From a virus: DNA of 33,957 nucleotides. The notes under the pieces were generated by a model that searched no databases, was not told where the DNA came from, and saw nothing but the letters and a program-made list of their open reading frames with translations. Of the stretch, positions 3,701-33,957 are shown in pieces. The DNA is taken from IMG/VR virus record IMGVR_UViG_3300037333_000151, positions 1-33,957 of that record, one strand, 5' to 3'. A program made the translations under genes and the position numbers. Numbering within the stretch: the stretch's first letter is position 1; every line of letters starts with the position of its first letter.

Positions 3701-4875
3701 ATACTCTTTTAGAAAAAGCAAAAGCTTTTCAAGAGGCTGCTGGGAATAATTCTGATTTAATTAATCTGCTTGCGAATTCGCTTGAAGGCGTTACGCAGCA
3801 AAGCACAGAAGATTATTTAAAAGGCATTTTGGAAAGCACGCAAAATCTTGCGACTGTGGGGCTGCCTGATACGAATATAGAGGATTTAACTGCTCCGCAA
3901 GAAAATACTCTTGACGCAATAAAAGATACAAACTCTTATTTAGAAAAACTGCTTGATTTGTTTAAAGGCGGTTTTACAGATATGTTTGGAGATGTAATAA
4001 ATATTTTAAAAGATATTTTAAGTGCGATTGGAAATGTGATTGGGGCAATTTTTAATGTTGCAGGCAATATTATCGGTAGCGTTATAAGTATAGGTGAAAA
4101 GTTATTTAATGGTCTTTTTAGTGCCGCCGGCAATATTATCGGTAGCGTTATAAGTATAGGTGAAAAGTTATTTAATGGTCTTTTTAGTGCCGCCGGCAAT
4201 ATTATCGGAAATATTGCAAATGAAATAGGAAAAATTTTGGGTGGTATAACTAGCGCAGTTGGCAGTATTACCGGAGCGATAGGAAACGTTATAAGCAGTA
4301 TTGCGGATTGGAGTAAAAAAATATTAGACGGAATAGTCGCGGCAGCGGGGAGTATTATTAAAGGTACTTTATCGTTTGCGGTAAACAGTGCGGGAATGAT
4401 TGTGGATTTAGCTGGGACTGTTATTACGGATGTAAGCAAATGGGCTAGTGATTTGATGGGCGGAGTCGGCGATGCAATCGGCAGTGTTGGAGATGCGCTA
4501 GGGAATGTTTTTGGAGGAATAGGCGATGCTCTTGGTGGATTGTTTGCAGAAGGTGGCTTTACCGGAACAGGCACTTATACTGACAGTACTGGCGAAAGAG
4601 TAGCCGGTATTGTTCATGAAGGCGAATGGGTTGCCCCTAAATGGATGGTTAATAGCTTTCCTTCTTTGTTTGCAAGTTTAGAAAAAGCAAGGATAACTAA
4701 AAGCGATATAAGTATCCCTGCACTCTCAATAGCAAACAATAATGTAAACGTAAGCGTAAATTTAACGGAAATACAAATAACAAATTCTATTCTAAAAGAG
4801 CAGTTAAGCTTGCATAGGAAAATGTATAGATTGCTCTTAAAATTTGACGAAGAAGGCATTAAATGCGTTTCTTAG
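718..4875 (+). CDS. Tail tape measure protein
   Basis: The product has 1385 aa and is the largest in the genome. It is used as the ruler for tail length and is later ejected. At roughly 0.15 nm per residue, a rule known for the family, the tail would be about 200 nm long. The N-terminus (about 1-250) has the usual tape measure start with aromatic and Ala-rich helices; residues about 400-700 are long charged coiled coil; residues about 1080-1290 are Gly/Ala/Ile/Val-rich amphipathic or membrane-like segments with a tandem 22-residue repeat; the end has a GGFTGTG segment and a helical tail. The TTG start at 718 is chosen because AAAGGAG lies 7 nt upstream. The end overlaps the next gene by 13 nt. 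No lysozyme or peptidase domain was recognised. Confidence 0.93.
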   Translation: MAYKVGTVLLEIKSDTAKLVSGMDRAEKSIYKLKRSFADLVKAAAAIYGITKTFQMLNSMIIETSAKFEKFSLILETLEGNSKKAQADLEWIKKFAQTTPYEIDKVTEAFVKLKSYGLDAQKELRVLGDTAAAMGKPLDMVVEAIADAVTGEFERLKEFGVKAYQQGNKVAFTWADASGKARYIVVNNNREVIESTLTAIWNSKYAGSMKKLSNSWDGIISNMKDAWTNFKADTAKLSFAEAKKDLLVLKSVWTDTLNDMKGPVADFETSVVKGFKQIVLGAAILDDSISDIVGVVTHTFKGVVYGIEYMLYGIPAAVEDAINGVLALLNKLPDWIKNKIGVKDFRVNMGWSVKRDKYADASIKEFAKVKEIFTDNIVAGKTGETYAYWKKKFEEAEKEVIAQSNKTLKKQKQIGQQGQFNRSEFKQNNISTKSYLDYAQRKALTQQAKLENKLADYAYKQKLALLKQINNEYNKTVKTRQQLLDDWYKKTVQAINIYLKGEEKASALAKVQLIYKKKEAEIQKQDLQNAQKLIAKYKGEYISEFGTQQEQLSAWYKEQYEYIQKTIKDEKERVKVLKELNTLMAAKMNKLQDENKPVTAIMQQAKELMKLLDAYKNAETEEEKNTYKTILTETFEGRLLFIADKAGEKFGFKVNKNIVAGFLLAEKYIKEAAGIFKGIAEAFFNSMYDSIKDRYTGLIDSLQQKVYTKELQSTAYNAFGQSGYGAVASYEGSITNVQMLKTQMSMYYELSKRAKEWKESIQDTIEIAGTTWAALGAASGMGINSVSQMIDGINFAMQGQKWAEEITGFKNFQQNYIDAVDKFKQAVRDLAKSLIDIAGRVYNSIKDYRSLYDKITGTNTYKLQEEAEALQEVSKYTQDLSVDSIASFTQDILQAQKDFTENAVVSTKDLESLTSATDLFSKYGLAIDSLNEKFKDSLSIVADLIAQQREANDAINDYIAELKGIAGDTNYNLEYTQQQYAIAKQEYLEGKIDSNTLLEKAKAFQEAAGNNSDLINLLANSLEGVTQQSTEDYLKGILESTQNLATVGLPDTNIEDLTAPQENTLDAIKDTNSYLEKLLDLFKGGFTDMFGDVINILKDILSAIGNVIGAIFNVAGNIIGSVISIGEKLFNGLFSAAGNIIGSVISIGEKLFNGLFSAAGNIIGNIANEIGKILGGITSAVGSITGAIGNVISSIADWSKKILDGIVAAAGSIIKGTLSFAVNSAGMIVDLAGTVITDVSKWASDLMGGVGDAIGSVGDALGNVFGGIGDALGGLFAEGGFTGTGTYTDSTGERVAGIVHEGEWVAPKWMVNSFPSLFASLEKARITKSDISIPALSIANNNVNVSVNLTEIQITNSILKEQLSLHRKMYRLLLKFDEEGIKCVS
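4063..4208 (+). repeat. 66-bp tandem repeat, 2.2 copies, inside the tape measure gene
   Basis: Units at 4063-4128 and 4129-4194 appear identical at every base, followed by a partial third unit (4195-4208). Each encodes 22 residues beginning AGNIIGSVISIGEK. Identity at synonymous positions points to recent duplication. Removing or adding one unit keeps the frame. Confidence 0.93.
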
Positions 4876-6754: not shown

Positions 6755-7234
6755 ATGGCAAATACAATTCTGGTTAAAAGAAGCAGTGCGACGGATGTAC
6801 CGAGTTCTTTAAAGTTTGGAGAAATAGCTTATTCTGCAAAAAGTGGTAAATTTTTTATTGGTGTAGATGATAACGGGACTGTTGTGGATATAGGCGTTAA
6901 CAACCTTAGTGATGTGTTACAGCAGTTATCAGATGCTCTTGCAAATAAATTAGATACTACGGCAACAGCAGCGGACAGTGCGAAGTTGGGAGGCAATACT
7001 CCTGATTACTATTTGAACATAAATCATGTGGCAAACAGTATTACAAGTGCGGATATAGACAACTGGAATACTGCTTACAATCTTATTGCAAGTGATTCTG
7101 ACGGGGTAATAGATAAAATACAGGAAATTTTTGATGCATTTAAAGGTATAAGTGATGACGGAAGTTTTAATTTACTTGAAGTATTGAATAGTAAATTAGG
7201 GGTAGATAGCACAATAGATGGGGGGACATTTTAG
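6755..7234 (+). CDS. Tail fibre protein with hyaluronidase/Mtd-type N-terminal module
   Basis: The product has 159 aa. The N-terminus (ILVKRSSATDVPSSLKFGEI, then KSGKFFIGVDDNG) is the phage fibre module found at the N-terminus of many fibre and tropism proteins, where it makes a small beta domain for attachment. The middle has a repeat-like SAKLGGNTPDYY segment typical of fibre shafts. It ends with DGGTF. It is paralogous to the start of the 76-aa protein that follows. AAAGGAG precedes the ATG. Confidence 0.75.
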   Translation: MANTILVKRSSATDVPSSLKFGEIAYSAKSGKFFIGVDDNGTVVDIGVNNLSDVLQQLSDALANKLDTTATAADSAKLGGNTPDYYLNINHVANSITSADIDNWNTAYNLIASDSDGVIDKIQEIFDAFKGISDDGSFNLLEVLNSKLGVDSTIDGGTF

Positions 7235-11126: not shown

Positions 11127-11157
11127 TTTCATCTCCTTTTTGTTTTTTCTTAATGCT

Positions 11158-11186
11158 ATTATACACCTATTTGGTATAAATGTCAA
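11158..11186 (-). promoter_or_regulatory. Consensus sigma-70 promoter for the acidic gene
   Basis: On the - strand TTGACA (11181-11186), a 17-bp spacer and TATAAT (11158-11163) form a perfect consensus promoter. The start would lie near 11151, about 25 nt before the ATG. Confidence 0.88.
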
Positions 11187-11193
11187 GAGCTTT

Positions 11194-11239
11194 TATGTAA
11201 AATATGTATAAATATGTAAAAATTTGCGAATTATATGTA
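11194..11239. repeat. Phased TATGTA repeats, candidate operator
   Basis: TATGTA occurs at 11194, 11203, 11213 and 11234, that is at 9, 10 and 21 bp steps close to the DNA helical repeat. The cluster sits between the two divergent promoters and could bind a regulator of both, for instance the HTH-like product at 11284. AT-rich background makes chance occurrence possible. Confidence 0.45.
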
Positions 11240-11246
11240 TTTGTTG

Positions 11247-11255
11247 TGCTATAAT
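11247..11255 (+). promoter_or_regulatory. Extended -10 promoter for the HTH-like gene
   Basis: TGC-TATAAT (11247-11255) lies 28 bp upstream of the start at 11284. No good -35 hexamer is present, as is common for extended -10 promoters. Confidence 0.65.
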
Positions 11256-11283
11256 TACACTAAATAAGTATAAGGAGGATAAA

Positions 11284-11757
11284 ATGTTTAAAGTACCTTT
11301 AAAAGAAATAGAAAGAAAATTTAATATCCCTTACCGCACAATTCAGAATTTTAACGAAGCGGAAGGATACAGGAAAGAAGTTGTAAATATTTTTAGTGAC
11401 CTAATAATTTTAGAAGAACTCGCAAAAAAAGATATAGAAAAATTTAAAGAGGCGGAAATTCCTTACATAACAGAGGGGATAGACAATTATTTAACAGAGA
11501 TTTTGTTAAATAAAACCGAAGCATTAAATCAGGCACTTACGGAGCTTATAAAAGATAATAATAAAATAAAAGAACTTACAGAAAATGCAATGCTACAAGA
11601 TTTTTTAGAGCCGGAAGAAATAAAAGCTACACAATATAGAATAGATAAGTATTTAGATAAATTAAGTAGATACTTTCTTGTAAAAGATCTTTTCGAAGAA
11701 ACATACAATTATTTAAAAAGTGTAAAAAAAGAAGGCAAACATGTCTTAAAAGATTAA
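11284..11757 (+). CDS. HTH-like regulatory protein, divergent from the acidic gene
   Basis: The product has 157 aa. The N-terminus (FKVPLKEIERKFNIPYRTIQ followed by NFNEAEGYRKEV) reads as a helix-turn-helix with its recognition helix at YRTIQNFNEA. The rest is helical and charged. The ATG at 11284 is preceded by AAGGAGG; an in-frame start 20 codons upstream would lie across the promoter. It has its own promoter and points towards the zinc-finger gene, which it overlaps by 4 nt tail to tail. Function unknown; it could control the divergent acidic gene. Confidence 0.65.
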   Translation: MFKVPLKEIERKFNIPYRTIQNFNEAEGYRKEVVNIFSDLIILEELAKKDIEKFKEAEIPYITEGIDNYLTEILLNKTEALNQALTELIKDNNKIKELTENAMLQDFLEPEEIKATQYRIDKYLDKLSRYFLVKDLFEETYNYLKSVKKEGKHVLKD

Positions 11758-17775: not shown

Positions 17776-18060
17776 TCAGATCCTTTCAAAAGGCGTTTGT
17801 TTAAGATTCGCAAAGCCATATTTTTCCTGCATCTTTTGCAACATTTCTGCTTTTAATTTATAAGCCAATTCCGTTTTTAATCCGAAAGTTTCATCGATTT
17901 TATAATTTAATTCGCTGTCCAGCTTTTTATTTAAAATCGCCTCCGCTTTTTTGCGCAAACGATAAAAATATTGCTCGCTAAATCCCGTGATTTCGCAGAA
18001 CTCTTTTGCTTTTATGTTTATATTGTTAAGTAGAAGAATTAAAGCTCTGTTTGTACTCAT
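17776..18060 (-). CDS. Helix-turn-helix-like protein, unknown
   Basis: The product has 94 aa. The N-terminus contains NINIKAKEFCEITGFSEQYF followed by YRLRKKAEAIL, which fits a helix-turn-helix with the recognition helix at SEQYFYRLRK. The C-terminal half is helical. CAAGGAG precedes the ATG. It may be a regulator in the leftward operon. Confidence 0.62.
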   Translation of the reverse strand: MSTNRALILLLNNINIKAKEFCEITGFSEQYFYRLRKKAEAILNKKLDSELNYKIDETFGLKTELAYKLKAEMLQKMQEKYGFANLKQTPFERI

Positions 18061-18072
18061 TTCAACTCCTTG

Positions 18073-18231
18073 CTACATATAATTACTCGGAAACTTCCAA
18101 TTATCAACAACGTCCGCGTTTTCGTCCGACCACTTTTTGTTTTTACGCCTCTGTACTATGTCGTAGGCTTTTAATAAAGCATACGGTGCGATAATTGCCG
18201 ACACTAACACACACGCGATAAGTAAGTCCAT
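18073..18231 (-). CDS. Small membrane protein (52 aa)
   Basis: One membrane segment at residues 2-21 (DLLIACVLVSAIIAPYALL) is followed by a basic stop-transfer (QRRKNKK) and a short tail ending PSNYM. GGAGAG lies just before the ATG and the stop is followed by the ribosome binding site of the next gene. Position and signals support a real gene; function unknown. Confidence 0.68.
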   Translation of the reverse strand: MDLLIACVLVSAIIAPYALLKAYDIVQRRKNKKWSDENADVVDNWKFPSNYM

Positions 18232-18310
18232 TTTCTCTCCTTTTTTTTGCTTCTTGTTTCATTCTTGCCGCTTTTAATTTTGCGCGGTATTTTTTAGTTA
18301 AAGGGGTCAT
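18143..18310 (-). CDS. Small basic protein (55 aa), overlapping the next gene
   Basis: The ATG overlaps the upstream TGA (ATGA at 18307-18310). The first 28 residues are strongly basic (TPLTKKYRAKLKAARMKQEA, KKRRENG). The frame then overlaps the 52-aa membrane protein gene by 89 nt, so the C-terminal half may be only a by-product. Plausible as a coupled small gene, moderately uncertain. Confidence 0.45.
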   Translation of the reverse strand: MTPLTKKYRAKLKAARMKQEAKKRRENGLTYRVCVSVGNYRTVCFIKSLRHSTEA

Positions 18311-18570
18311 TTTTGTCCTTTATTTCTAATAGGAATATATGTTACTCGTCCATAAGAGTCTTTTTTAACTACACATGAACATTTATGTCCTGTTTTTGCT
18401 AATCCTCTGTCGTAACTCAAAAATTCATCACCCTTGTAACACATTATTTCTGCGCTATTTCCAACTATCATACGACAATAATTTTTACTAAAGACACCCG
18501 CAGACAAATGTGTGAAAACTATTAAAAGCGCAACAAGCGTCCCTACTAACAGGGCTACATATTTATTCAT
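18307..18570 (-). CDS. Small exported or membrane-anchored protein
   Basis: The product has 87 aa. It has an N-terminal hydrophobic segment (about residues 4-26, VALLVGTLVALLIVFTHLSA) that could be a signal anchor, then a Cys-containing soluble part (NYCRMIVG, EIMCYKG, HKCSCVV). Four cysteines suggest disulfides in the periplasm. AAAGGAG precedes the ATG. It is the first gene after the structured leader in the leftward direction. Function unknown; phage envelope proteins at this position often alter host surface or exclusion. Confidence 0.65.
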   Translation of the reverse strand: MNKYVALLVGTLVALLIVFTHLSAGVFSKNYCRMIVGNSAEIMCYKGDEFLSYDRGLAKTGHKCSCVVKKDSYGRVTYIPIRNKGQK

Positions 18571-18592
18571 TCGCTCTCCTTTATTTTTTCTC

Positions 18593-18698
18593 GGCAGCGG
18601 CGGCCGCGAATCCGCAACCCTTACCGCCTTACGTGAGGGCGGCGAGAAAGGATGAAAAAAGGGGTATCAGGAAATCATCCGCCCTCGCGTAAAACGGT
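18593..18698 (-). ncRNA. GC-rich structured leader of the leftward operon (candidate antiterminator-type RNA)
   Basis: A GC-rich island in an AT-rich genome with no ORF. It includes the palindrome GCGGCCGC, a strong hairpin CCGCCTT-acgtg-AGGGCGG (18624-18642), and a 20-bp imperfect inverted repeat (18623-18642 with 18679-18698, 17/20) enclosing GGATGA/TCATCC (18650-18655, 18675-18680). Nothing resembles a U-tract terminator. As RNA from pL it would fold strongly; a cis-acting antitermination element such as HK022 put is one option, a regulator binding site or small RNA another. Confidence 0.5.
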
Positions 18699-18726
18699 AG
18701 GTTTAACAATAGGCTTTCAAAGAGCT

Positions 18727-18735
18727 TGCTATAAT
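18727..18735 (+). promoter_or_regulatory. Extended -10 promoter for the gene at 18774
   Basis: TGC-TATAAT (18727-18735) precedes the start by 38 bp. TTAACA at 18703-18708 is too far (21 bp) for a normal -35. Initiation near 18742 would place the 14-nt shared element at the very 5' end of the transcript. Confidence 0.62.
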
Positions 18736-18740
18736 TAGCA

Positions 18741-18754
18741 GTTGAGTGCGGGGA
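18741..18754 (+). repeat. 14-nt leader element, copy 1
   Basis: GTTGAGTGCGGGGA occurs here on the + strand and at 19112-19125 on the - strand, in both cases between a promoter and the start of a small gene. It is GC-rich compared with its surroundings. Perfect over 14 nt. Confidence 0.88.
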
Positions 18755-18773
18755 AATTTTAAGGAGCGCATAA

Positions 18774-18998
18774 ATGAAAATAACTTACGATGAATTTATA
18801 CAACTAAAACGTGAAGTTGAATCCCTTAAAAAAGAACTTGAACGTTGTAAGAAAAACGCTTCCGCAGCTGCTTATAATGCAGCAGTAACTCTTTTAGAAG
18901 ATTTAATTAAAACTGGAAACGTAAAAGTAACCGAAAAAGCATTTGAAAATATTAGTGCCGATATTTTGGAAACCACTCGGAAGCCTTTTGAGGACTGA
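18774..18998 (+). CDS. Small coiled-coil protein, antisense to the leftward early transcript
   Basis: The product has 74 aa. The first 27 residues are an ideal coiled coil (KITYDEFIQLKREVESLKKE); an Ala-rich helix and a mixed tail follow. TAAGGAG precedes the ATG. It has its own promoter and leader element, and its 3' end overlaps the 48-aa gene on the other strand by 47 nt. Function unknown; it sits where lambda has N/rex-type genes. Confidence 0.68.
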   Translation: MKITYDEFIQLKREVESLKKELERCKKNASAAAYNAAVTLLEDLIKTGNVKVTEKAFENISADILETTRKPFED

Positions 18999-19098
18999 TT
19001 CCGAGAAGCTTGGCATGCAGTTTGATTCTTCGCTTATAGTTTAAGCGACTTTTATATGCGGCTGCTAATAATTCTTTTTTGGAACGACCAATTCTCAT
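18952..19098 (-). CDS. Small basic HTH-like protein (48 aa), first gene after pL
   Basis: Protein starts MRIGRSKKELLAAAYKSRLN and ends with KLLGISPQKASEWFPKYRH, which reads as a compact helix-turn-helix with recognition helix SPQKASEWF. It is strongly basic. AAAGG lies 7 nt before the ATG and the pL promoter about 70 nt upstream. It shares its leader element with the convergent gene. Likely a small DNA- or RNA-binding regulator; in lambda this slot holds N, but no arginine-rich N homology is visible. A gene this short could be missed by automatic calling. Confidence 0.62.
   Translation of the reverse strand: MRIGRSKKELLAAAYKSRLNYKRRIKLHAKLLGISPQKASEWFPKYRH
18976..19005. other. Stem-loop in the overlap of the convergent gene pair
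   Basis: CTCGGAA (18976-18982) pairs perfectly with TTCCGAG (18999-19005) across a 16-nt loop, spanning the stop of the + gene and the end of the - gene. No U-tract follows. It may protect mRNA ends or pair with the opposite transcript. Confidence 0.45.
19030..19053 (+). terminator. Candidate terminator after the + gene (inside the 48-aa gene)
   Basis: TCGCTTA (19030-19036), loop TAGTT, TAAGCGA (19042-19048), then C-TTTT. It lies 32 nt after the + gene stop. The T-run is short, so efficiency is uncertain. Confidence 0.38.
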
Positions 19099-19111
19099 AT
19101 CAAAACCTTTC

Positions 19112-19125
19112 TCCCCGCACTCAAC
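19112..19125 (-). repeat. 14-nt leader element, copy 2
   Basis: On the - strand this is GTTGAGTGCGGGGA, identical to 18741-18754, placed 13 nt before the ATG of the 48-aa gene and downstream of pL. Confidence 0.88.
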
Positions 19126-19145
19126 AACCAACTTTCAATCATCTC

Positions 19146-19161
19146 ACACCCGGTTGGGTGT
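19146..19161 (-). promoter_or_regulatory. Leader hairpin of the pL transcript (nut-like position)
   Basis: ACACCC-AACC-GGGTGT on the - strand forms a perfect 6-bp stem with a 4-nt loop within the first 25 nt of the predicted pL RNA. Position recalls boxB of lambda nut sites, but no boxA-like sequence is clear. Confidence 0.5.
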
Positions 19162-19173
19162 TTTGGTAGTGCT

Positions 19174-19203
19174 ATTATAAGAAAATTTCTTACACAATGT
19201 CAA
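19174..19203 (-). promoter_or_regulatory. Leftward early promoter pL
   Basis: TTGACA (19198-19203, - strand), an 18-bp spacer, and TATAAT (19174-19179). Initiation near 19167. The operator palindrome at 19178-19192 fills the spacer, so repressor binding would block this promoter. It would drive the 48-aa gene and then the recombination, xis and int genes. Confidence 0.85.
19178..19192. promoter_or_regulatory. Repressor operator OL1
   Basis: TAAGAAAATTTCTTA is a perfect 15-bp palindrome between the -35 and -10 of pL. It shares the core AAGAAnnnTTCTT with the site at 20403-20417 by pR. Confidence 0.78.
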
Positions 19204-19211
19204 GAGATTTG

Positions 19212-19226
19212 AAAGAAAAATTCTAA
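19212..19226. promoter_or_regulatory. Repressor operator OL2
   Basis: AAAGAAAAATTCTAA matches the AAGAAnnnTTCTT core at 9 of 10 fixed positions. Centre 34 bp from OL1. Confidence 0.6.
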
Positions 19227-19233
19227 CTTTTTG

Positions 19234-19248
19234 TAAAAAATATTCTTT
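19234..19248. promoter_or_regulatory. Possible operator OL3
   Basis: AAAAAAATATTCTTT matches the core at 9 of 10 positions (AAAAA-ATA-TTCTT), centred 22 bp from OL2. It overlaps the -35 position of the + strand promoter for 19294. The AT-rich context lowers confidence. Confidence 0.42.
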
Positions 19249-19260
19249 CGTTAGTTTAGA

Positions 19261-19266
19261 TATAAT
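19261..19266 (+). promoter_or_regulatory. -10 element of the promoter for the gene at 19294
   Basis: TATAAT at 19261-19266, 27 bp before the ATG; no clear -35. Candidate operator OL3 occupies the -35 position, so the repressor may activate or repress here. Confidence 0.58.
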
Positions 19267-19293
19267 GTCAGAAACTTATAAAAAGGAGAAAAG

Positions 19294-19686
19294 ATGAAAA
19301 AAATTTTATATTTAATTTTATTTAGTTTAATTGGAATGTTTATATATATGTTTAGTTTAATTAATGTGAACGATTCTAGCCAAAGCCAAAAAAAACATAA
19401 TTTAATAATTGAAATAAACAAAAACAAACAATTACAAATAATAAAATATTTTAAAAGCGAAAAAGAACCAAATGTTAGAGATGCGGTTTGGAGAAATAAA
19501 AATGTTTTAGCTCTTGCGGTAAATAACGGATATGATGAAAAGGGTTACGCTGAATATGTATGTGTTACTTTATATAACAACTTTCATGTTAATAAAATTT
19601 GGATAGAATTAATAAATTGGTACGAAATGCTTAAAGCAAAACAATTAAAAGTAAAAACAAGATATTTTTGTAATTTACATAAATAA
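19294..19686 (+). CDS. Membrane-anchored protein beside the repressor (exclusion candidate)
   Basis: The product has 130 aa. One N-terminal membrane segment (about 3-24, KILYLILFSLIGMFIYMFSL) is followed by a soluble part with WRNKNVLALAVNNGYDEKGY and YVCVTLYNN. It could be a signal anchor, with the domain outside the membrane. AAAAGGAG precedes the ATG. It is convergent with the repressor (4 bp apart) and has its own promoter, so it could be expressed in the lysogen. Genes in this place often encode superinfection exclusion or lysogenic conversion functions; no family recognised. Confidence 0.65.
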   Translation: MKKILYLILFSLIGMFIYMFSLINVNDSSQSQKKHNLIIEINKNKQLQIIKYFKSEKEPNVRDAVWRNKNVLALAVNNGYDEKGYAEYVCVTLYNNFHVNKIWIELINWYEMLKAKQLKVKTRYFCNLHK

Positions 19687-19689
19687 GTT

Positions 19690-20310
19690 TTATAATTTAC
19701 TTGTAACTTCCAAACATTTAGCCATCCTAACTTCATCCCCTTCTTTTATTGCAATCGGTGGATATTTGTCATTAAGCGGCATAAGCATTACAGGTTTTCC
19801 GTTTTCATCCATTATCACTTTTTTGATCCCACTTTCGCTACCGTTAATCGTATAATGTACTATATTTCCGTTATCGATATAAGCTTCTCTATCGCATAAA
19901 ACAATGTCGCCTTCTTTGATTTTAGGGAGCATACTATCGCCTACCGCTTTTACGTAATATCTGCCTTCTTTGTAAAGATGTTCAGGAACAGGATACATCT
20001 CAAATTCAGAATTTTCATAAAAATGATTTGTAGGAACACCGCAACTTGCTTCGCCTATTATAGGCAGATAATGAGTTACAGGAATTTCTTCACCTAAAAG
20101 ATACAAAATATTTACATTAAAATAATTAGCGATTTTTTTTAGTATTTCTAATGGAATATTTGCTTTCCCTTTAAAATAATCACTTATTCTTACTCTGTAT
20201 TTTGCTGGAACAGGCTCATTTTTAGGTATATCAAAAATAATCCTTGCAAGGTCTGCATTATTCATATTGTGTTCTTTCATTAATTTTTTAATTACATCAA
20301 TAGTATCCAT
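19690..20310 (-). CDS. Phage repressor, XRE-type HTH plus S24 (LexA-like) peptidase
   Basis: The product has 206 aa and maintains lysogeny by binding OL and OR. Residues about 1-75 form the DNA-binding domain (MNNADLARIIFDIPKNEPVP, YRVRISDYFKGK, then LEILKKIANYF). Residues about 85-200 are an S24 peptidase with Ser126 (VGDSMLPKIKEGDIVL) and Lys163/164 (GIKKV). The self-cleavage bond is probably Cys90-Gly91 (EASCGVPT). RecA-stimulated autocleavage would induce the prophage. The ATG at 20310 has AAAGGA 6 nt upstream; longer in-frame starts would run through pRM and pR. Confidence 0.93.
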   Translation of the reverse strand: MDTIDVIKKLMKEHNMNNADLARIIFDIPKNEPVPAKYRVRISDYFKGKANIPLEILKKIANYFNVNILYLLGEEIPVTHYLPIIGEASCGVPTNHFYENSEFEMYPVPEHLYKEGRYYVKAVGDSMLPKIKEGDIVLCDREAYIDNGNIVHYTINGSESGIKKVIMDENGKPVMLMPLNDKYPPIAIKEGDEVRMAKCLEVTSKL

Positions 20311-20340
20311 CTTAAATCCTTTCGTTAGATTTTTTCCTAC

Positions 20341-20346
20341 ATTATA
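20341..20346 (-). promoter_or_regulatory. -10 of pRM (repressor maintenance promoter)
   Basis: TATAAT on the - strand, 31 nt upstream of the repressor ATG. There is no -35 consensus; operator OR1 covers that position, so repressor could control its own synthesis. Confidence 0.65.
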
Positions 20347-20358
20347 CAATATAATAAG

Positions 20359-20373
20359 TAAGAAAAATACTTG
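20359..20373. promoter_or_regulatory. Repressor operator OR1
   Basis: TAAGAAAAATACTTG matches the AAGAAnnnTTCTT core at 9 of 10 positions. It lies between pRM and pR and touches the -35 of pR. Confidence 0.65.
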
Positions 20374-20399
20374 CGTTTTGAATTTGAATCTGCTACAAT
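20371..20399 (+). promoter_or_regulatory. Rightward early promoter pR
   Basis: TTGCGT (20371-20376), a 17-bp spacer and TACAAT (20394-20399) with an extended TGC (20391-20393). It sits just upstream of OR2 and the gene at 20431. Confidence 0.68.
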
Positions 20400-20402
20400 A
20401 CG

Positions 20403-20417
20403 AAAGAATAATTCTTA
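20403..20417. promoter_or_regulatory. Repressor operator OR2
   Basis: AAAGAATAATTCTTA carries a perfect AAGAAT-A-ATTCTT dyad over the start point of pR. The same core as OL1. Confidence 0.75.
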
Positions 20418-20430
20418 CAAAGGAGAAAAT

Positions 20431-20613
20431 ATGGAATATCCGCACAGGGCGCAAGTGTGGGAGTGGAAAACAGGTAAGGTAATCCCTAAGCCTAAGACAC
20501 TGCAAAAATTACCGGATGAAAAATTAAAAGAGGAACTTGCGGCATTAGCAATTAAAAAATATTTGCCTTTTATTAAATCAAAAAAAGTCAAAAAGGAGTT
20601 GCTAAATGATTAA
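20431..20613 (+). CDS. Cro-position protein, short HTH remnant-like
   Basis: The product has 60 aa. QVWEWKTGKVIPKPKTLQKL matches the recognition helix and following helix of XRE/Cro-type proteins (normally vs.WesGkr.Ps...l..i), but the first two helices of the fold are missing. The ATG at 20431 has AAAGGAG upstream and follows OR2. Its position, first after pR and opposite the repressor, is that of cro. It overlaps the next gene by 8 nt. It may be a minimal Cro, an unusual fold, or a degraded one. Confidence 0.65.
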   Translation: MEYPHRAQVWEWKTGKVIPKPKTLQKLPDEKLKEELAALAIKKYLPFIKSKKVKKELLND

Positions 20614-20893
20614 AAAAACTTCATATGTAGCTTATCAAGAGCTAAAAAAAGAAGGGAAAGAGCTTTCTCAAAAAACAAAAATATTTCTTTATATAAAAGA
20701 AAATCCAAACGTATCGCGAACACAAATAGCGAAAGCTTTAAATTTAGGAATTAATGCAGTTACAGGAAGAGTAAATTTGCTATTAAATCAAGGTTATTTA
20801 GAAGTTGCAGAAATAAGCCCGTGTCCAATCACGGGCAAAAAAGTTGAAAAATTAAGAGTAAGCAATTATAGCATAAAAAAGGCAGAAAAATGA
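20606..20893 (+). CDS. Winged helix-turn-helix protein
   Basis: The product has 95 aa. The domain SRTQIAKALNLGINAVTGRV, NLLLNQGYLEVAE, then CPITGKKVEKLRV is a MarR-like winged helix of the type common next to phage replication genes, where the C-terminal PITGKK segment is characteristic. It probably binds DNA near the origin or regulates the early operon. It overlaps genes on both sides (8 nt and 4 nt). Confidence 0.7.
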   Translation: MIKKTSYVAYQELKKEGKELSQKTKIFLYIKENPNVSRTQIAKALNLGINAVTGRVNLLLNQGYLEVAEISPCPITGKKVEKLRVSNYSIKKAEK

Positions 20894-33724: not shown

Positions 33725-33957
33725 ATGAAACTTACGCTTGACGTGCCTATTGAAGTAAAGATTGAAGAAAACGGAAAAGTAAAAGAAACGCTAAAAGTTA
33801 CCTTCCGTTACCCTACAAAAAAAGAGGAAATAGAGTTTAAAGAGCTTGAAGAAGAGGTAAAAGGGCTTTTTAAAAAGCTCTCTAAATACGAAAAAGAGTT
33901 GCAAAGAATCGAGAAAAAAATCGAATACGCGGAAAAAAGAGAAGATTACGAAACGGC
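33725..33957 (+). CDS. Tail assembly chaperone, 5' part (continues at base 1)
   Basis: The gene starts MKLTLDVPIEVKIEENGKVK at an ATG with AAGGA upstream (33715-33719). Codon 28 falls at 33806, which is base 1 of the window. Codon 36 is ATA (Ile) here and AAA (Lys) in the left copy, a polymorphism or an assembly error. The role and frameshift are described for the 3' part. Confidence 0.85.
   Translation, partial: MKLTLDVPIEVKIEENGKVKETLKVTFRYPTKKEEIEFKELEEEVKGLFKKLSKYEKELQRIEKKIEYAEKREDYET
33806..33957. repeat. Terminal overlap, right copy (equals 1-152)
   Basis: 151 of 152 bases match the window start; the difference is T33831 against A26. It joins the two halves of the chaperone gene into one frame. 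Confidence 0.95.

Follow-up and report, generated by a model that had tools for sequence, protein, structure and literature searches.

Within a 33,957-bp phage genome (the whole stretch of DNA analysed, referred to below as the window), two small genes face each other, overlap at their 3′ ends and carry the same 14-nt element in their leaders. Related phages contain further pairs of this type with other, pair-specific elements at the corresponding positions. Comparison of the sequences established the architecture of these cassettes, their fixed spacing, the co-variation of their two elements (arms), their tandem arrangement and their place behind a promoter with CI-type operators. The explanation that we prefer, with a probability of roughly 0.45, is a modular array of cassettes with matching leaders that heads the CI-controlled PL operon and in which a long-range helix in the read-through RNA would limit or process expression of the first gene.

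The window is IMG/VR record IMGVR_UViG_3300037333_000151 (33,957 bp, 35% GC). An exact direct repeat of 126 bp at the contig ends (27-152 = 33832-33957) indicates that the record is probably a complete circular assembly. Judged by its sequence, the window is a lambda-like temperate phage, and it encodes an integrase, an SSB, an ERF recombinase, an S24 CI repressor, an O-like replication protein and a terminase. The sole relative of the integrase found in genome contigs was 54% identical and belonged to a Nautiliaceae genome, and the best phage relatives of the helicase were those of Helicobacter phages. These relationships suggest that the host is probably a Campylobacterota species, perhaps one of the Nautiliaceae, which would place it among hydrothermal-vent-type bacteria.

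The preliminary description of the region had placed one 14-mer in the leaders of both facing genes, and the two copies of GTTGAGTGCGGGGA were confirmed as exact, at 18741-18754 on the plus strand and at 19112-19125 on the minus strand, each directly upstream of the SD of one of the convergent genes. The plus-strand copy (distal arm) lies at the start of the transcript of the 74-aa gene, 19 nt before its ATG, and the minus-strand copy (proximal arm) is part of the PL leader and precedes the ATG of the 48-aa ORF by 13 nt. The window contained exactly these two copies and no further ones at ≤1 mismatch. No other perfect inverted repeat of 14 nt in the window had ≥9 G/C; shuffled sequences gave an expectation of 0.03 such GC-rich repeats per whole window, and none of 60 had one within 1 kb.

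The ORFs of 74 aa (18774-18998, plus strand) and 48 aa (18952-19098, minus strand) overlap by 47 nt (18952-18998), as had been described. The distal gene encodes a predicted coiled coil and has the SD AAGGAG and a coding-like codon usage. The PL-proximal ORF encodes a basic protein and has the SD GAAAGG, and its codon usage was within the non-coding range. The HTH-like character previously assigned to the 48-aa protein proved weak: the match to Pfam HTH_28 (E = 0.01) was below the family cutoff, the single-sequence AlphaFold model consisted of three helices (pLDDT 75), and a fold search with this model gave no significant match. Homology searches with the 74-aa and 48-aa proteins returned nothing, or coiled-coil noise. 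A separate promoter for each gene, also part of the earlier account, was found again: TTGACA-18-TATAAT on the minus strand, and on the plus strand the extended -10 sequence TGCTATAAT (18727-18735), which has no clear -35 and no CI-type operators and whose upstream context is conserved in the relatives. The two stem-loops noted before (18976-18982/18999-19005, with 7-bp arms, and 19030-19048) both exist, but the terminator-like one did not exceed the chance expectation. The cassette is bounded by the repeats GAGATGATTGAAAG (19132-19145, minus strand) and AAGCTCTTTGAAAG (18714-18727, minus strand).

Relatives of the early region were found through the CI protein (L167, an IMG/VR phage with 68% identity), through the DNA of 18590-18770 (L170, whole contig L178, from genome G469, and L171/L179 from genome G029) and through a conserved 52-aa neighbour gene (L181/L183 from genome G097). 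L178 and L183 are prophage contigs from two genomes of the same order. Searches with the terminase and the helicase led to no relatives of the early region. In L167, L178 and L183 the same region carries pairs of convergent small genes, the two leaders of which contain near-identical elements, and the element differs between pairs: it is TATAATGTTAAGTGAGGGAGG in L167, TGTTAGGGACGG and TAAGTGAGAAGCCC in the two tandem pairs of L178, and TAATGTTAAGTGAGGGGAT in the complete cassette of L183, which lies behind a truncated pair with the visible arm GTTGAGTGTGGGAA. In the five complete cassettes of the four phages (window, L167, L178 with two, L183), the perfect repeats are 14, 21, 14, 12 and 19 nt long. 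Conservation of the pair and of the 14-mer in related phages had been proposed as a check; the architecture was kept, whereas the genes and the element were both replaced. Because four more pairs have matching leaders with a pair-specific sequence, the shared element is, on this comparison, under constraint. The tandem pairs of L178 and L183 are joined by a conserved junction, GCTAATTATAGCGAGATGATTGAAAG, which is identical in both phages and has a recognisable counterpart, GCTAATTATAGCAAGCTCTTTGAAAG, at the far end of the cassette in the window. A TTGAAA-containing repeat flanks the cassettes at nearly every boundary.

The geometry of the cassettes was constant. The distance from arm to ATG was 13–14 nt for the PL-proximal gene and 19–23 nt for the distal gene in all five complete cassettes, and the proximal SD was always of the GAAAGG type and the distal SD of the AAGGA(G) type, never swapped (5/5). 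The position of the arms is fixed relative to the start codons and varies relative to the promoters. The arms are 223–439 nt apart, and the 3′ overlaps of the ORFs measure 47, 146, 47, 167 and 62 nt. A scan of 70.7 kb (window, L167, L178, L183 and L179) for perfect inverted repeats of ≥12 nt with ≥5 G/C, 150–520 nt apart, returned only the five cassette elements. The ten cassette proteins showed no significant mutual similarity, and comparison with Pfam and PHROGs gave almost no known families, no toxin family and, for most of them, no DNA-binding signature; one distal protein of L183 matched a PHROG annotated as kinase. The proximal ORF of L167 has a non-coding-like codon usage.

The 14-mer of the window did not behave as a general motif. 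It was present in at least 119 viral stretches, and among the matches listed none had a second copy nearby. When AAGG was required behind it, only chance matches in coding sequence were found in viral contigs and one match in 397 genomes, and no multicopy host motif was seen. Matches in L184 and L188 were each rejected as isolated chance matches, that in L184 lying in coding-looking sequence. Rfam gave no credible match for window positions 17900-20800, L167, L178 or L183.

The minus-strand promoter (19203-19174, TTGACA-18-TATAAT, 12/12) contains in its spacer the perfect palindrome TAAGAAA-A-TTTCTTA (19178-19192), a putative CI operator. The palindrome recurs with 3 mismatches beside the promoter at 19212 (second putative CI operator, 19212-19226) and 19234, and twice in the CI-cro gap (putative CI operators at 20359-20373 and 20403-20417); local shuffles gave P = 0.0025 and 0.0055 for this recurrence. 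A 14-nt consensus built from the operator sites matched the window at ≤1 mismatch only at 19179, 19213 and 20404. Since the palindrome is shared between this promoter and the CI-cro gap, we assign the promoter as PL, the early promoter of the leftward operon, with operators of the CI type, which makes the 48-aa ORF the first one in the early-left operon. PL and PR share palindromes in the window, L167 and L178, with a different palindrome sequence in each phage, and in three phages the leftward PL operon that begins with the array has CI-type operators. The CI-type S24 repressor is encoded at 19690-20310 (minus strand). A 60-aa Cro candidate (20431-20613, plus strand) stands at the head of the rightward operon, and L178 has a similar ORF in the same place. 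The conserved 52-aa gene (18073-18231, minus strand) belongs to the early-left operon and is a marker common to L167, L178, L183 and L171.

Several other elements were observed around the early promoters. The 5′ leader of PL contains the hairpin ACACCC-AACC-GGGTGT (19146-19161, minus strand); related hairpins at the start of the leader recur in L167 and L178 with other stem sequences, followed by GAGATgATTGAAA. Moron-like genes that face CI, between CI and the array, differ in each phage (window 19294-19686, plus strand; L178 5493-5924, minus strand; L167 5481-6110, minus strand), and that of L167 encodes a DNA/RNA non-specific endonuclease (PF01223). Elsewhere in the window, at 11150-11290, a second 12/12 sigma-70 promoter (11186-11163, minus strand) stands back to back with an extended -10 promoter (11247, plus strand). 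These promoters drive two unknown genes, probably morons, that neighbour the genes for lysis and integrase.

We compared the arms of the five cassettes for co-variation. The identity of the arms within cassettes (67 of 70 positions) was the best of 120 pairings, the next best reaching 63. A PL-strand helix model of 20 pairs had 96% of its cells in standard pairs and double changes at 13 of the 20 pairs, a value reached by none of 500 shuffles; the alignment behind these numbers consists of five related sequences and was anchored manually at the arms' GTT, and the shuffle control leaves the relatedness between cassettes in place. Sliding the arms by 1–3 columns destroyed the pairing signal. On the PL strand 96% was paired versus 91% on the other strand, and 10 G-U pairs were counted there, flanks included, versus 5. 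This comparison is only suggestive that the PL strand tolerates differences between the arms better, as G-U pairs.

Predictions of RNA folding gave a consistent picture of pairing between the arms. In the PL read-through RNA of the window the arms were predicted to pair with a probability of 1.0, which was worth about -16 kcal/mol of ensemble energy, and in every cassette the true distal arm gave a lower ensemble energy than all 30 shuffles of the arm. For L178, in which two cassettes share one transcript, cross-pairing between cassettes was the weakest (-11 and -12 kcal/mol versus -34 to -41 kcal/mol for the matched arms). The co-variation, the predicted pairing and the weak cross-pairing in L178 make a long-range helix in RNA our preferred candidate for the function under selection. 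A shared RNA element had been among the earlier suggestions, and pairing of RNA fits best because the leaders match within pairs while their sequence differs between pairs. Masking of the SD by the helix was not consistently predicted between cassettes: pairing of the SD was predicted with and without the far arm, and its accessibility showed no consistent fall when the far arm was present. On these predictions only blocking beside the SD or cleavage would remain as the action of the helix.

We infer the following sequence of events for a cassette, which consists of two convergent, 3′-overlapping small genes with an arm, private to the cassette, between the promoter or leader and the SD of each gene. 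RNA polymerase starting from PL would read through the cassette, and the arm of the first gene would then pair with the complement of the far arm to form a helix of 20–27 bp, the end of which lies 1–6 nt from this gene's SD. Translation of the first gene would be possible only until the far arm has been transcribed, which would result in a burst of synthesis. Afterwards the helix beside the SD would hinder the loading of ribosomes, and RNase III may cut it and so detach the cassette from the operon RNA. Each cassette would fold as a closed domain. The far gene, which has its own promoter, could be made in the lysogen and would oppose PL by convergent transcription and antisense RNA. With convergent overlaps of 47–167 nt, mutual antisense is geometrically unavoidable, and an antisense action is putative.

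The identity of the two arms could also be maintained in DNA. Arms that serve as recombination sites or targets of gene conversion would make the cassette an invertible segment or an exchangeable unit, and recombination between the inverted arms would keep them identical and could swap the gene read from PL. The cassettes do look like invertible segments in that the convergent genes lie inside exact inverted repeats (perfect over 12–21 nt) with the promoters outside, the direct repeats at the boundaries and the tandem arrangement suggest exchange of cassettes, and gene conversion would also account for two identical DNA copies. We nevertheless consider this unlikely. The RBS modules inside the arms never swap and have the same orientation in 5/5 cassettes, so that both orientations were not found among the five; the arm sequences are too different for one recombinase; and as a candidate for such an enzyme the scanned window proteins contained just a tyrosine integrase. 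The G segment of phage Mu likewise holds convergent alternative genes between inverted repeats, and differs in that no invertase was seen here, the arm sequence is not conserved and the RBS modules were never swapped. Transposon ends were also considered and rejected, as there was neither a target duplication nor repeated copies.

Recognition of the arms by a protein, as DNA operator or RNA site, seems less probable still. A single regulator for a shared operator, as once proposed, does not fit elements that differ from pair to pair even within the L178 operon, so each cassette would need a regulator of its own, such as the basic 48-aa protein with its weak HTH signal. Cassette-specific arms in two identical DNA copies suit cassette-encoded regulators, and the far arm, at about +1 of its promoter, is well placed for a repressor. 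The proteins are nevertheless non-homologous between cassettes and mostly lack a DNA-binding signature, the sites are not palindromic, and their position is tied to the start codons and not to the promoters. In lambda-type phages the same nut/boxB site occurs in both the PL and the PR leaders, and one N protein recognises one type of site. The 14-mer was absent (≤3 mismatches) from the PR leader and the sequence after it, and the elements differ between the two cassettes of one L178 operon; the antitermination signal suggested in the preliminary description is unlikely on these grounds. We regard as very improbable an antisense pair resembling a type I toxin-antitoxin system, in which one partner, RNA or gene, would silence the other and the arms would do no more than stabilise a 5′-3′ fold of the mRNA. 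It would agree with the overlapping convergent transcripts and with the 5′-3′ long-distance interaction that controls aapA mRNAs in epsilonproteobacteria (PMC6733600), but, read by sequence, the ten proteins include no small hydrophobic peptide, both transcripts contain ORFs with SDs, and the fold is found again in cassettes whose genes are unrelated. Chance, or a neutral 14-nt duplication of recent date, would be in keeping with the AT-rich 14-mer repeats that are common in the window; it is effectively refuted by five independent cassettes that differ in sequence and share one geometry, and by the lack of other such repeats in 71 kb.

The cassettes share features with several described systems. 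In lambda (PR-PRE) and coliphage 186 (pR-pE), convergent lytic and lysogenic promoters lie 320 and 340 bp apart (PMC6593788), and there as here a CI-controlled early promoter faces a second promoter, at about 425 bp by the estimated start sites of the window; transcriptional interference between PL and the distal promoter is expected by analogy. In those phages CI is the product of the opposing promoter, and leader arms that match have not been described for them, whereas here both transcripts encode variable small proteins and the arms are cassette-specific and in tandem; the opposing transcript of the window does not express CI, which is on the other strand and farther away. In hok and in aapA/IsoA of H. 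pylori (PMC6733600), leader sequence close to the SD at the 5′ end pairs with a remote 3′ segment, and antisense transcription overlaps in cis; aapA comes from the same phylum. Those systems oppose a small toxin and an ORF-less antisense RNA (PMC6733600), whereas the cassettes contain two ORFs and many unrelated proteins in a phage operon, and masking of the SD is not consistently predicted for them. Start-associated and extended start-associated sequences of Cluster K mycobacteriophages are likewise short repeats directly before the starts of small non-structural genes, some of them with 17-bp inverted repeats, and are of unknown function (PMC3203893). They follow one 13-bp consensus, GGGATAGGAGCCC, at many starts, with local repeats (4–13 bp spacer; PMC3203893), whereas the cassette element has another sequence, serves two starts per cassette and has repeats 223–439 nt apart. 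A repeated early-operon target recognised by base pairing is also found in phage P4, in which the small processed CI RNA acts on two sites, seqA and seqC (PMC4825925); here the arms pair with each other's complement.

A GC-rich hairpin adjoins the window cassette (18618-18704, arms 18622-18642/18679-18699), and similar hairpins occur in L167 (about 7040-7115), L171 (1501-1598) and L178 (about 6965-7065). Their arms resemble cassette arms and their loop is SD-like, and they are perhaps gene-less mini-cassettes. On the PL strand the window hairpin is complementary at 16 of 18 positions to the leader of the 48-aa ORF, including the SD. Trans-acting antisense of the P4/P1 type is thus a possibility suggested by sequence, which we demoted in view of the relatives, where the hairpin resembles a mini-cassette whose RBS sequence is similar; a conserved RNA acting in trans was not established. 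Directly after the arrays of L167 (about 6960-7060), L178 (about 6890-6965) and L183 (about 3890-3990), a different, conserved element was observed, consisting of two hairpins, stem-CCGAGCC-stem (CCGGTC in L178) and then stem-GAGGCAGGGT(G/T)AA-stem. It shows compensatory stem changes, had no Rfam match and was not found in the window; its appearance is that of an RNA acting in cis, conceivably put-like.

The preliminary description had known no module of this kind, and we likewise found no description of such cassettes in the literature (open-access papers). None of the families tested accommodates an array of facing gene pairs whose arms are private to each cassette and co-vary; the mechanism that we infer employs the known parts of convergent transcription and long-range pairing. 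We tentatively propose a new class of accessory-gene array, in which interchangeable cassettes of facing genes with co-evolving arms would each fold on themselves and be switched off or cut out without cross-talk to their neighbours, the second gene being on a private promoter. If the arms act in RNA, small genes would be loaded as modules into a repressor-controlled operon, each privately regulated, and orthogonal pairing codes would have evolved side by side. The array is also a hot spot for small, uncharacterised phage proteins. In a phylum with few phage studies, these are candidates for a role in counter-defence or in the takeover of the host.
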